IMG/VR virus record: IMGVR_UViG_3300032092_002720
Span: 64,001-128,000 of that record
Length of the DNA: 64,000 nt
Source: a virus
Strand: one strand, 5' to 3'
The notes under the pieces were generated by a model. The model was not told the origin of the DNA. It did no database searches and worked only from the letters and a program-made list of their open reading frames with translations. Position numbers and translations under genes: made by a program. Below are positions 835-49,808 of the stretch, one piece after another; the stretch's first letter is position 1, and every line of letters begins with the position of its first letter.

Positions 835-2211
835 TTAAGCGCCTGGATTGATGCGCACTCCGAGAGTCGAGTAGTTTTTCGGCACCGGAACATCTGCAGT
901 TTGGTTTGTAGTTGGTGTACTTAATTGAACGGGTGTTACCGAGCCTCGAATTCTCCCAGCAAAATCGCCTATAATCGTAGTTTCATTCGTCAAGTTTGTA
1001 AGCTCAAGGCCTCTTCCAAGCGGAGAATTGAGAGTAGATAGCGGATTTCCGGGATCACCGACAACAAAAGTTCCGTCCGGATTTCTTCTTCTACCTGTTA
1101 CAATAATTTCGTCTTTAAACGACTTATCATCTACACGGGTCTTTGGCGGAATTCTATTGATTCGAAGATCAGTGAAAGAGAAAGTGATGTTCAGCTTCAT
1201 CAAAGTGTTTTCTTCGCTCCATGACATATTCATACTTTGTATTCCAGTAGGAAATACATCATATATATTGTACGTCATGACTTGGTTCTGAGCTCGGTCA
1301 TATACAAACACGTTTACGTTAGGACATGAGTATGTATCTTTATAGGCAATCTCGTAAGGTTTTCTTCCATTTTTAAGATTGTTGTTATTCATATTCGCGC
1401 CGCCAAAAGAGTCGCGATTGACGATGAGATTTAACCACTCTTCGAAGTATTCTATAACTAAAGCATTCTTATCGACGATGAATTGCAGAGTAAAATCTCC
1501 GACGTTTACACCATACGCAACGTTTTCGACTGGACCAAATCCATATCTTCGAATGTTTTGCTCTTGTAAGAGATTCACAGAAGGAAGAACGACGTTATCG
1601 CATCTCATCGTAAGAAGCGAGTCGAGATTCTGAGCACTAAATTTTGATCTCGTCCAGATCATCGGAGCAAAAACTACTAAGAAGCTGTGAGTAGGCAGTA
1701 CACTGTCGGCGCCAGAAACTTCTGCTCTAAATCGACCGATGTTGAACGTTCCTGTTGTGCGCGCACCTGTACTAAAAGCAGAATCAGAAGTTCTAGCTTT
1801 AGATATATTAGTAAGATTACCTTCAGAATCTCTTTCGAATAATTCTGAATTAGTATTAACACCTTCGCCTCTTAAACGCTCATCAATTACTGTTTTTGGA
1901 GCAGGCGCCCCAACTCCAGTGCCTGTCCCGGCGGCTGCACCCGCCGCGGCAGTCGAACGTGTAGGAGTTTCTTGTCTAGTAGAAGCGGCCGGTTGAGATC
2001 TCGTAGTTGCAGGTTGAACTCGAGGATCTGCTAGTCTGCCAAGTCTAACTAACTCTAAAGCTACTGGATCTCCGGAGGTAAGAACTTGTCCTACCGTTAT
2101 TGGACTTGAACTTTCTAGTATTCTTTCACGCTGTCGTAAAGTGATTTCACCGTATTGTGATTCCACTGGCTCACCGCGAGAGTTTTCTACGAAGTTAGGT
2201 CTATTTGACAT
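835..2211 (-). CDS. gp54: gp54-type baseplate tail-tube initiator
   Basis: A 458-residue protein with a T4 gp54-like, tail-tube-fold core at about residues 155-365. The core opens with HSFLVVFAPM, continues through CDNVVLPSVNLL, a FTLQFIVDK...YFEEWLNLIV segment and an IYDVFPTGIQSMNMSW segment, and ends in NITFSFTDLRI. In T4, gp54 (320 residues) sits on the baseplate and starts tube polymerisation. Here the core is preceded by about 150 residues rich in Ala, Thr, Ser and Pro (low complexity near residues 70-110) and followed by a polar tail of about 100 residues, which explains the greater length. Its start overlaps the stop of the upstream gene by one base (TAATG). A gp48-type assignment is less likely because a better gp48 match starts at 3297. 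Confidence 0.7.
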   Translation of the reverse strand: MSNRPNFVENSRGEPVESQYGEITLRQRERILESSSPITVGQVLTSGDPVALELVRLGRLADPRVQPATTRSQPAASTRQETPTRSTAAAGAAAGTGTGVGAPAPKTVIDERLRGEGVNTNSELFERDSEGNLTNISKARTSDSAFSTGARTTGTFNIGRFRAEVSGADSVLPTHSFLVVFAPMIWTRSKFSAQNLDSLLTMRCDNVVLPSVNLLQEQNIRRYGFGPVENVAYGVNVGDFTLQFIVDKNALVIEYFEEWLNLIVNRDSFGGANMNNNNLKNGRKPYEIAYKDTYSCPNVNVFVYDRAQNQVMTYNIYDVFPTGIQSMNMSWSEENTLMKLNITFSFTDLRINRIPPKTRVDDKSFKDEIIVTGRRRNPDGTFVVGDPGNPLSTLNSPLGRGLELTNLTNETTIIGDFAGRIRGSVTPVQLSTPTTNQTADVPVPKNYSTLGVRINPGA

Positions 2212-2810
2212 TACTTAGTAACTCCTAGCATTCTTTTCGTATCCATCCAAACTTGATTCTTTCTTGCTTTGACGAAACGTTCTGTTGGTAAGAAGAGCGC
2301 GATATCCCATTCAGATGGATAAACGTACATAAACTTTGACTGTACGTGCGAAGTCAAGTAATGCTTGATGCATGGAGCATACCATCTTAGCTTTGCGGCC
2401 TGTGTCATGAGTTCATAGCTAAGTTTCAGGCGAGTCGACTCGTCGTAACGAGTATTGTTTGCAAAGTCATATAAGCCGTCCATCAACTTCGCTCTGAGTT
2501 GTAACGGCAAGTAGTGTAAGTTGAGTCCCATAAATCCACCTTTGACCTTCTTATATGGAAAGATCAGAGGAAATCTATCGTAGTATGGAAGCTCTTCTTT
2601 GTGTTTTGGATCATAGTAAAACATGTACATTGATCCGAGCAGAGGCTGAGTGGTCATACGTACTGTATCACCCTTCATCATCTCACGCTCATTGATACGG
2701 TTCATTTTGCCAGCAGTATCTCTGAACCACTCACGCGCAGTGTTAGTACGCGCTGGTATTTGGCCAGCACGGACACCTTGAGTAATGATACTATCAAAGA
2801 CTGTTGCCAT
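2211..2810 (-). CDS. conserved phage protein between gp4 and gp54 (completion-type, unassigned)
   Basis: A 199-residue basic protein, rich in Tyr and aromatic residues. A central segment reads YYDPKHKEELPYYDRFPLIFP, then GGFMGLNLHYLPLQLRAKLMDGLYD; the C-terminus has VYPSEWDIALFLPTERF. I recall very similar proteins in T4-like phages of marine bacteria but cannot give a verified function. Its place between the gp4 head-completion nuclease and the tube initiator suggests a role in head or tail completion, or as a DNA-end protein comparable in position to T4 gp2 or gp3; this is inference from location. Both ends overlap neighbours by one base (TAATG), so it is translationally coupled within the minus-strand operon. 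Confidence 0.6.
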   Translation of the reverse strand: MATVFDSIITQGVRAGQIPARTNTAREWFRDTAGKMNRINEREMMKGDTVRMTTQPLLGSMYMFYYDPKHKEELPYYDRFPLIFPYKKVKGGFMGLNLHYLPLQLRAKLMDGLYDFANNTRYDESTRLKLSYELMTQAAKLRWYAPCIKHYLTSHVQSKFMYVYPSEWDIALFLPTERFVKARKNQVWMDTKRMLGVTK

Positions 2811-3250
2811 TAAAACTTAATTCCTAATTCTTTTTCGGTCAGTATATCGAACTTCCAACCTCGATCATTACAAAATACTGCTGCAGCTTTCCATTTGGCT
2901 TCGTTGACACCCCATGTCATGACTTCATTAATATAACGCTTATTAGGCTTATTTATCACCACTGGAGGCCGCGTCTGCGCATGAGGTTTTATTTCAACCA
3001 CCACAGTATCAATCTTACCTTCTGGATTTTTCTTCTTGACAATAAAGTCTGGAAAGTATCGATGTACTCGATTGTCAATAGGAGAACGATATGGGATGAC
3101 GAGTTCTTCACTTCCCCATTGCACGACATTAGGATGGGAATCTAAGTACATCATGAACTTTAATTCCCACCGACTACGATATATGATATTGTTCGAGTCT
3201 CCGATATACTTCTTTGTATTCTTTGGTCGAAACTTTCCCTGATAAGCCAT
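2810..3250 (-). CDS. gp4: gp4 (gp50) head completion nuclease-like protein
   Basis: A 146-residue protein beginning MAYQGKFRPKN and closely resembling T4 gp4, the 150-residue head completion protein. Family features in order are YRSRWELKFMMYLDSHPNVVQWGSEE, IPYRSPIDNRVHRYFPDF, a VVVEIKPHAQ strand, and a C-terminal KWKAAAVFCNDRGWKF segment. The E...D...E-x-K arrangement is the signature of a restriction-endonuclease-like (PD-(D/E)XK) fold, so it probably acts on or protects packaged DNA ends before tail joining. An in-frame extension upstream to 3577 runs antisense through gp48 and is rejected. No Shine-Dalgarno sequence precedes the ATG, and a minus-strand late-promoter box lies only five bases upstream. 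Confidence 0.88.
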   Translation of the reverse strand: MAYQGKFRPKNTKKYIGDSNNIIYRSRWELKFMMYLDSHPNVVQWGSEELVIPYRSPIDNRVHRYFPDFIVKKKNPEGKIDTVVVEIKPHAQTRPPVVINKPNKRYINEVMTWGVNEAKWKAAAVFCNDRGWKFDILTEKELGIKF

Positions 3251-3255
3251 GAATC

Positions 3256-3267
3256 TATTTATAAATA
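3256..3267. promoter_or_regulatory. palindromic divergent T4-type late promoter
   Basis: The 12-base sequence TATTTATAAATA is its own reverse complement and carries TATAAATA, the T4 late-promoter -10 box, on both strands (3260-3267 plus, 3263-3256 minus). It lies in the only gap between the minus-strand gp4 operon and the plus-strand gp48 operon. Plus-strand transcription would start roughly 25 bases before the gp48 ATG. Minus-strand transcription would start at or very near the gp4 ATG. Confidence 0.75.
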
Positions 3268-3296
3268 AGATGTAGCCTTTTAATTTGAGAGATAAC

Positions 3297-4562
3297 ATGG
3301 CCGGAAGAGATAATCGACTAGTAAATTTAGATAGTCTTAAGAGAGACGCGGGTGGTCTGGTAAACAGAGCCGTAAGGAATTTTACTAATAAACTCGAAGA
3401 CAAACTTGAGAACGCAGTCGAGGATCTTTTTGCCAAAGCATTAAAGAAGGTAGGATTTTCTGATAGACTTGCATCAGAGCTTTCAGCGCGCTTCGGAGAT
3501 TCTTTAACTGCTGGACTCGAAGACAAGTATTTCCAAACATTTACGAGCGAGATGAAGAGAGCATCGTGTGCCGACATTCGTAATAACTTTAATCCGCAGA
3601 ACGGTAATCTTATCGGAGCTTCTCCTAACGCTGAAACATATGTCGACGCTATTCAAAGAGCTTCAAATAAGATTGAAGGTCTTGGTCTGTCAGGAATGCA
3701 ATTCCCTGATCATATCAGTGAGAAGTATTACATGGCATTTAAGTTTAAGAGATATCAGCGACCTTCTCCTCAAACTGCGGCAACTCTTGACTTTGTACAA
3801 GCATTTGCTCTTCCTCTACCGAAAGGCATAAGAGAAAGTTTCGACATTGAAGTTGGCCAAGAATCACAGGGCTTGGCAGGCGGTATTGCGGATGCTGCTC
3901 AATTATATTTGGCTTCTTCAGATGGCGCAGGTAAAACTCAAGCATTAAAAAATGCTGCAGCTGCTCTAGCTTATGGTCAATTGGTGCAAGCAGCCGAAAA
4001 GATAGGCGGTAGCACGATAGGCCAAGCAGTCGGTGCTGTTCCAAATCCTCACATTCAAGCGCTGTTTAGTGGTGTTCCTCTTCGTACACATCGATTCGAA
4101 TGGACTTTTGCGCCTCGAAATGAGAAAGAAAGCCAACAGCTGATGGATCTGCTAAAAGCGATGAAAGCTTATGCGCTACCATCATACAGTAGCTTAGGTA
4201 CTGCTGCACTCGCTTATCCATTCTTGTGTCAGCCAGAACTGAAGATTGCTGGTAGTGCACAGTTAATTAAGTTCCAGCCGTGCTTGATTCAAAGTATCGA
4301 ATTGAACTATTCGCCGCAAGGAATTCCTGCATTCTTCGAAGGCACAAGCCATCCTGCGTTTATCGAAGTTTCAATCACAATGCTTGAAACTCAAATTCAA
4401 ACATCGCGAGATTACGGAAGAGAAGGCGGTGATCGTCTTAGCGCGACATGGGAAACGCTGAAAGGTGAGTTGCAAAAAGGCCTTGATAAGGCTGAGATAC
4501 CTTTCAATATCGATGAAAAGATGAACGAAGGAACAGACGCCATAAGAAACGCTTTAAACTAA
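3297..4562 (+). CDS. gp48: gp48 baseplate tail tube cap
   Basis: A 421-residue protein taken to start at the ATG at 3297, with GAGAGA just upstream; a TTG four codons earlier is less likely. The C-terminal half carries the gp48 pattern: a PLRTHRFEWTFAPRNEKESQQL segment near residues 260-280, then AYPFLCQPELKI, and a late stretch around IELNYSPQGIPAFFEGTSHP with FIEVSITMLET. T4 gp48 (364 residues) caps the hub and, with gp54, seeds the tail tube. The N-terminal 90 residues are helical and charged. It is the first gene downstream of the divergent late promoter and is followed after 12 bp by gp53. The gp48 versus gp54 labels could in principle be swapped with the 835-2211 gene, but the motifs favour this assignment. 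Confidence 0.75.
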   Translation: MAGRDNRLVNLDSLKRDAGGLVNRAVRNFTNKLEDKLENAVEDLFAKALKKVGFSDRLASELSARFGDSLTAGLEDKYFQTFTSEMKRASCADIRNNFNPQNGNLIGASPNAETYVDAIQRASNKIEGLGLSGMQFPDHISEKYYMAFKFKRYQRPSPQTAATLDFVQAFALPLPKGIRESFDIEVGQESQGLAGGIADAAQLYLASSDGAGKTQALKNAAAALAYGQLVQAAEKIGGSTIGQAVGAVPNPHIQALFSGVPLRTHRFEWTFAPRNEKESQQLMDLLKAMKAYALPSYSSLGTAALAYPFLCQPELKIAGSAQLIKFQPCLIQSIELNYSPQGIPAFFEGTSHPAFIEVSITMLETQIQTSRDYGREGGDRLSATWETLKGELQKGLDKAEIPFNIDEKMNEGTDAIRNALN

Positions 4563-49208: not shown

Positions 49209-49756
49209 TGCGCATACTCCGTGTCAAAGAAGAATGTCTGAAACAGACGACCATCATATAAATCTTTACCAAAGTAATCTAAGCTGGCATGGAAGAGGTC
49301 ACCGCTATAAAGAACTAGTCGATTGTATTTGTTGCCTACGATGTCGATCTTATCCCACTTGGTATAGTCGTATGCCTCGTGCTCGTTTTTCGGAGCTCGA
49401 TACTCTCCAGTTTCCTTGTGTCGAAACATTCCTGTGCCTGCAGTATGCGGCGCATCAGGCGTGAGATAGCATACACCAGCCCACATACTCGTGTGATCGC
49501 AGTGGATCCACGTTCTATCCATAGATGTTGCGTATTGAAAGGCTCCAGTGTAACCCGAATCTTCATGCCAATTGGTAATCTTTCCAATTGGATTCATCCA
49601 ATGTTGAATGCAGTCCTTGACATCTTGTGTCAAGAATGAAGGCGTTCGTTTTCCTGGGTAGTTACCTGTGACGCTAAAGTCTTGTGTAAGAGCAAAGGCT
49701 CTGACTGCGTCGGGATTGATATAGAAGTTATCTATAATCATCAAGTCTAAATTCAT
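49205..49756 (-). CDS. DUF6445-like 2OG-type oxygenase
   Basis: A 183-residue protein with a pattern I associate with DUF6445: IIDNFYINPDAVRAFALTQDF at the N-terminus, GNYPGKRTPSF, then WIHCDHTSMWAGVCYLTPDAPHTAGTGMFRHKETG, and NRLVLYSGDLFHASLDYFG near the end. The residues fit a 2OG-Fe(II) oxygenase site: H85 and D87 (IHCD), H156 (DLFHAS) and R170 before LFQTFFF. This makes a third such enzyme in the island. The substrate is unknown. A minus-strand TATAAATA box lies 32 bp upstream, so it starts its own short operon with the glycosyltransferase. Confidence 0.75.
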   Translation of the reverse strand: MNLDLMIIDNFYINPDAVRAFALTQDFSVTGNYPGKRTPSFLTQDVKDCIQHWMNPIGKITNWHEDSGYTGAFQYATSMDRTWIHCDHTSMWAGVCYLTPDAPHTAGTGMFRHKETGEYRAPKNEHEAYDYTKWDKIDIVGNKYNRLVLYSGDLFHASLDYFGKDLYDGRLFQTFFFDTEYAQ

Positions 49757-49787: not shown

Positions 49788-49795
49788 TATTTATA
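49788..49795 (-). promoter_or_regulatory. T4-type late promoter, minus strand
   Basis: On the minus strand this reads TATAAATA exactly, 32 bp before the ATG of the DUF6445-like gene. It stands back to back with the plus-strand box at 49801. Confidence 0.72.
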
Positions 49796-49800
49796 CGGCT

Positions 49801-49808
49801 TATAAATA
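49801..49808 (+). promoter_or_regulatory. T4-type late promoter, plus strand
   Basis: An exact TATAAATA lies 33 bp before the gp13 start at 49842; AGAGGG provides the ribosome-binding region. Another AATAAATA is found at about 49816. With the opposite box at 49788 it forms a divergent promoter pair separated by five bases. Confidence 0.75.

Follow-up and report, generated by a model that had tools for sequence, protein, structure and literature searches.

A palindromic T4-type late promoter predicted to serve divergent gp4 and gp48 operons, and apparently leaderless gp4 mRNAs, in T4-like phages

The late promoters of phage T4, which depend on gp55, gp33 and gp45, have an 8-bp box of sequence TATAAATA upstream of virion genes and no -35 element. 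They are activated by the gp45 clamp, the polarity of which is set by the DNA strand carrying the 3'OH end, and the box spans positions -13 to -6 (PMC1524935). In the T4-type phage RB18, gp4 and a baseplate gene are divergently oriented and have separate boxes that face each other, with a gp4 leader that contains a Shine-Dalgarno (SD) sequence. Cyanophage late promoters (NATAAATA or CTAAATA; PMC2984593) use the same type of box, which is found before gp4, with gp48 or another tail gene as the divergent neighbor; in most of the cultured cyanophages examined this box lies approximately 20–30 nt from gp4.

Two further systems described outside the T4-like phages are also relevant. Bacterial bidirectional promoters with a symmetrical -10, described by Warman, Grainger and co-workers (PMC12825309, PMC10268837), direct divergent starts from a shared -10-type element; they are recognized by sigma70, are pseudo-symmetrical, and are influenced by -35 sequences. 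Their two directions are independent at basal activity but interfere once one of them is strongly activated, and 23 bp is among the common separations of the paired starts (PMC12825309). Leaderless mRNAs, such as that of lambda cI (PMC9031893), start at the AUG and have no SD. Each of these three classes, T4 late promoters, bidirectional promoters and leaderless mRNAs, is known on its own, and the open-access literature that we searched contained no palindromic late promoter of the T4 type and no leaderless late gene in a T4-like phage. The sequence comparisons described here predict both, in the form of a perfectly symmetrical late promoter common to two virion operons and of a late gene that is recurrently leaderless across T4-like phages.

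The stretch of DNA analyzed (the window) is 64,000 nucleotides long and corresponds to positions 64001–128000 of a 128,766-base viral record, IMGVR_UViG_3300032092_002720. The phage is T4-like, with a portal protein that is approximately 54% identical to those of a Stenotrophomonas phage and of cyanophages, and its identified virion genes include gp4, gp48, portal and sheath, with late boxes preceding other virion genes too. A scan of ten candidate ORFs identified no gp55, gp33 or gp45, a negative that carries no weight because the 128.8-kb record is a fragment. The first gene of the minus-strand operon (2810–3250) encodes the 146-residue gp4, a head completion/closure protein with a TnsA-like nuclease domain (PHROG 218, 1e-60; Pfam PF08722, 2e-23), the start of which was set by N-terminal MAYxGKx homology. 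Directly 3' of it lies the gene for the gp2 DNA end protector (2211–2810, minus strand; PHROG 429, 2e-55), which has its own SD (AGGA), and the operon extends some 8 kb into the record's left half. The plus-strand operon begins with a gp48-like baseplate tail-tube cap gene at 3297–4562 (PHROG 230, 1e-37; Pfam PF11091, T4_tail_cap, 3e-7), whose leader contains a purine-rich, weakly SD-like GAGAG at 3287–3291 (plus strand), 5 nt before the ATG, and relatives keep either GAGAG or AAGAGAA.

Between the two genes, at 3256–3267, is a perfect 12-bp palindrome, TATTTATAAATA, which contains a perfect match to the T4 late box on each strand, one directed towards gp4 (3263–3256, minus strand) and one towards gp48 (3260–3267, plus strand). 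The two boxes share a single core, as in a bidirectional promoter with one -10-type element in both orientations, and both precede late genes for virion proteins in a T4-like phage. Exactly 5 nt, GATTC, separate the minus-strand box from the gp4 ATG (3250–3248), and there is no SD, whereas 28 of the 39 listed window genes match the anti-SD by at least 4 nt. The plus-strand box is 29 nt from the gp48 start. These features confirm the preliminary description of a self-complementary late box on both strands, 5 nt from a gp4 that lacks an SD. The palindrome is present once in the window and once in the complete record, in which approximately 0.013 copies are expected under an order-1 model; the sequences flanking it are not palindromic.

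Because the T4 box occupies -13 to -6, the 5-nt gap places the predicted +1 of the gp4 mRNA on the A of the ATG (3250, minus strand), and the mRNA would thus be leaderless. By the same rule, which is taken from T4 and applied here to a phage and host that differ from T4's, the gp48 mRNA is predicted to start at approximately 3273 (plus strand) with a leader of approximately 24 nt. This puts it 23 bp away from the predicted gp4 start, a separation that is common at the bacterial bidirectional promoters. No called gene in the record other than gp4 has a late box 10 nt or less from its ATG, and for every other late box that is closely followed by a called gene the distance to the start codon is 15 nt or more. 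Neither predicted mRNA has a stable 5' structure (z of 0.3 and 0.9), and matches to sigma70 promoters or terminators in the region are at chance level only.

The window also contains an ordinary two-box counterpart of the palindrome at 49788–49808, where separate back-to-back late boxes (49795–49788, minus strand, and 49801–49808, plus strand) serve divergent genes at 49756 (minus) and 49842 (plus), both of them leadered.

To place this junction among its relatives, gp4 loci were gathered from IMG/VR and from named phages, with the gp4 start positioned by N-terminal homology. Loci with 70 nt or more of upstream sequence, 340 in all, were clustered at 85% protein identity, which gave 125 clusters. 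Of these loci, 136 carry the 12-mer, distributed over the window's own cluster (WIN, 99 loci), L053 (32), L051 (3), L068 (1) and L224 (1), and the palindrome-carrying group consists of uncultured freshwater T4-like viruses. In the three related clusters that include the window (WIN, L053 and L051) the palindrome is invariant in 33 of 33 distinct intergenic sequences, with most flanking positions being 35–80% identical. The gap to gp4 is 5 nt in 31 of these and 4 nt in the other two, whereas that to gp48 varies from 27 to 32 nt, so that the spacing is set relative to gp4. The divergent neighbor is gp48-like in all 132 palindrome loci with a readable neighbor. Of the 125 cluster representatives, 5 carry the palindrome no more than 60 nt from gp4, compared with 0.006 expected, and there are no copies elsewhere in 588 kb of their sequence. 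This conservation, together with the large excess over the expected count next to gp4, leads us to reject a chance origin and indicates that the palindrome is under selection.

An N-terminally extended gp4 translated from further upstream is disfavored, because T4-type gp4 proteins share the same start methionine and an in-frame upstream start is absent from 11 of the 33 distinct sequences; some in-frame start codon does occur upstream, before a stop, in the other 22 sequences of the palindrome clade.

These patterns also bear on whether the symmetry itself matters. Each box taken alone is simply the standard consensus, and in other relatives boxes overlap or face each other at many offsets, so that the palindrome could represent two functional late promoters that overlap by happenstance, with neither their symmetry nor their sharing under selection. 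We think this unlikely, since the offset between the boxes is identical in all 33 distinct sequences and is found again in L068; the two-way function is in any case common to this account and to that of a shared promoter, and they differ in emphasis only. L068 is one of two clusters beyond the window's three in which the palindrome recurs, and the gp4 tree does not place it with the window. That tree requires several changes for both the palindrome and the close gp4 spacing described below, and although it is weakly resolved (146 columns, 19 of 122 inner branches starred), more than one origin for either trait is likely.

Perfect symmetry could alternatively reflect a DNA-level element such as a recombination or nicking site or a protein operator, and across the palindrome gp48 does diverge faster than gp4. 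However, the flanks lack any palindromic character and the overlapping boxes are each an exact T4 late consensus in a promoter-like position and orientation for both genes, such that we regard a role other than that of a promoter as highly improbable. The divergence itself is seen on comparing the window's gp48 (3297–4562) with those of L003, L012, L033 and L040, which are 68–84% identical and differ at their N-termini while the gp4 proteins are 94–99% identical, suggesting that gp48 is exchanged or changes rapidly right up to the putative shared promoter.

Close spacing between a late box and gp4 is not peculiar to the palindrome. The TAAATA nearest to the gp4 ATG is 4–6 nt away in 44 of the 125 clusters (27 of them at exactly 5 nt), compared with 0.6 expected from simulations, and the distances are bimodal, with few at 7–20 nt and most of the others at approximately 21–44 nt. 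In these 44 clusters the promoter spacing predicts a transcription start at or near the start codon, and an apparently leaderless gp4 mRNA is thus widespread, in approximately one third of the sampled gp4 clusters. We defined a close class of 46 clusters with a box 3–7 nt from the gp4 ATG and compared it with a leadered class of 57. The close class uses ATG in 46 of 46 clusters and has an SD in only one, as expected for leaderless mRNAs, which have no SD and begin with AUG, and the window's gp4 has the same two properties. A pyrimidine is present at -1 in 39 of 46 close clusters and 34 of 57 leadered ones (p 0.008), and pyrimidines are present at both -2 and -1 in 32 of 46 and 19 of 57 respectively (p 3e-4), these p-values being rough because the clusters are related and their counts non-independent. 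Such an enrichment is expected for transcription starting at the A, since a pyrimidine before a purine is favored at start sites. The median gap to the divergent gene is also shorter in the close class, at 23 nt versus 50 nt. As 41 of the close-class clusters lack the 12-bp palindrome, the spacing is not tied to the palindrome and mostly occurs without it.

The close class also bears on whether the palindrome promotes gp48 only, with gp4 being transcribed with a leader from an upstream promoter, such as one inside gp48 in antisense, or by another route and the proximity of the box to its ATG being incidental. The conventional leader and spacing of gp48 fit such an arrangement, and there are weak sigma70-like matches upstream of gp4 on the minus strand. 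These matches are at chance level, however, and the gap is fixed relative to gp4 rather than to gp48; moreover, all 41 close-class clusters without the palindrome have a gp4-directed box 3–7 nt from the gp4 ATG. We therefore consider a promoter for gp48 only to be quite improbable. As for late boxes elsewhere from which the minus operon might be transcribed, only one other minus-strand NATAAATA box was found in that operon, located within the gp4 coding sequence, and there is none on this strand between 3264 and 49787.

The comparisons argue strongly for the two central proposals of the preliminary description, that one late-promoter palindrome serves both directions and that the gp4 mRNA begins at its start codon, and we consider it likely that the palindrome is a bidirectional T4-type late promoter for both operons with gp4 expressed from a leaderless mRNA. 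Because late promoters of this type have no -35 element, the palindrome would be the entire sequence-specific element and would have no direction of its own. A phage late sigma factor of the gp55 type, together with host RNA polymerase, would bind it in either orientation. In one of these, transcription of the gp48/gp53 baseplate operon would initiate at about 3273 and give a normal short leader; in the other, the first base of the gp4–gp2 transcript, at about 3250, would coincide with that of the gp4 AUG, and the leaderless mRNA would be translated through recognition of its 5'-terminal AUG. Polymerases in opposite orientations would be sterically excluded from occupying the palindrome together.

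This proposed promoter departs from each of the described systems in at least one respect. The bacterial bidirectional promoters are only pseudo-symmetrical and use sigma70, whereas that of the window is a perfect palindrome presumably recognized by a phage late sigma factor with the replication clamp; binding in one orientation excludes the other at the bacterial promoters, and on steric grounds the same is expected at the palindrome. Relative to RB18, with which it shares the divergence of gp4 from a baseplate gene, the window has one palindrome in place of two boxes and a gp4 mRNA predicted to have no leader, and its 5-nt gap sets it apart from most of the cultured cyanophages that were examined. 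Leaderless mRNAs of the lambda cI type provide the closest parallel for gp4, but here the prediction concerns a phage late structural gene and recurs at that one gene in many T4-like lineages.

The preliminary description went further in proposing a built-in switch between the gp4 and gp48 operons. In a true switch, polymerase bound one way round would silence the opposite operon, so that the two would alternate or be kept at a ratio set by competition. The case for this is one of steric logic, as overlapping boxes cannot hold two polymerases simultaneously, and steric competition has been demonstrated at sigma70 bidirectional promoters under strong activation of one direction. However, all five of the E. 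coli bidirectional promoters tested were without competition at basal activity (PMC12825309), both operons here encode late virion proteins that are needed together, and the leaderless spacing is mostly found without the palindrome, with T4-type RB18 having two separate boxes. A switch is not needed, since compact, simultaneous expression of late virion operons explains the conserved features, and we find a true directional switch distinctly unlikely; the selective reason for the shared promoter is more likely to be compact, co-timed expression.

A more speculative extension of the bidirectional promoter is that the orientation of the replication clamp sets the direction of each firing, with replication geometry then partitioning transcription between the two operons, one of them leaderless. 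The clamp could choose in this way because there is no -35 element and clamp polarity follows the DNA 3' end, and we offer this tentatively, as a possibility about which we have considerable doubt. If the bidirectional reading is correct, the palindrome is a naturally perfect bidirectional promoter whose own sequence cannot specify direction, and it would provide a clean experimental system in which to study what orients the polymerase and whether the sliding clamp makes that choice. A recurrently leaderless late gene would similarly allow leaderless translation in lytic infection to be tested with a defined virion protein.

Several related junctions show other arrangements of overlapping signals. 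In many close-class relatives (including L071, L078, L344, L345, L342, L109 and L134) the gp4 box is CATAAATA, whose CAT is the ATG of the divergent gene read on the opposite strand, such that a start codon is embedded in the opposite promoter. The L205–L245 group presents the mirror case, with the gp4 ATG abutting TATTTAT so that the late box of the divergent gene overlaps the gp4 start codon. These embedded and abutting start codons suggest that compaction of the divergent junction has occurred repeatedly, with the palindrome being one form of it. L244 and L119 have a 14-bp variant palindrome, TATTTATATAAATA, comprising two late boxes that overlap by two bases.

Apparently leaderless late genes are also not limited to gp4. 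For other genes in the sampled loci the main peak of box distances is at approximately 17–35 nt, with a small additional peak at 4–6 nt (17 cases, several of them gp2), and gp2 and some other late genes follow a late box by 4–6 nt downstream of gp4 in, for example, L162, L169, L161, L168 and L136. Among cultured phages, Synechococcus phage S-CREM1 (L353) contains the arrangement TATAAATA-GTTTT-ATG at 246–279, with this ATG in frame with gp4, of which the annotated start lies 18 nt further downstream and may be wrong.
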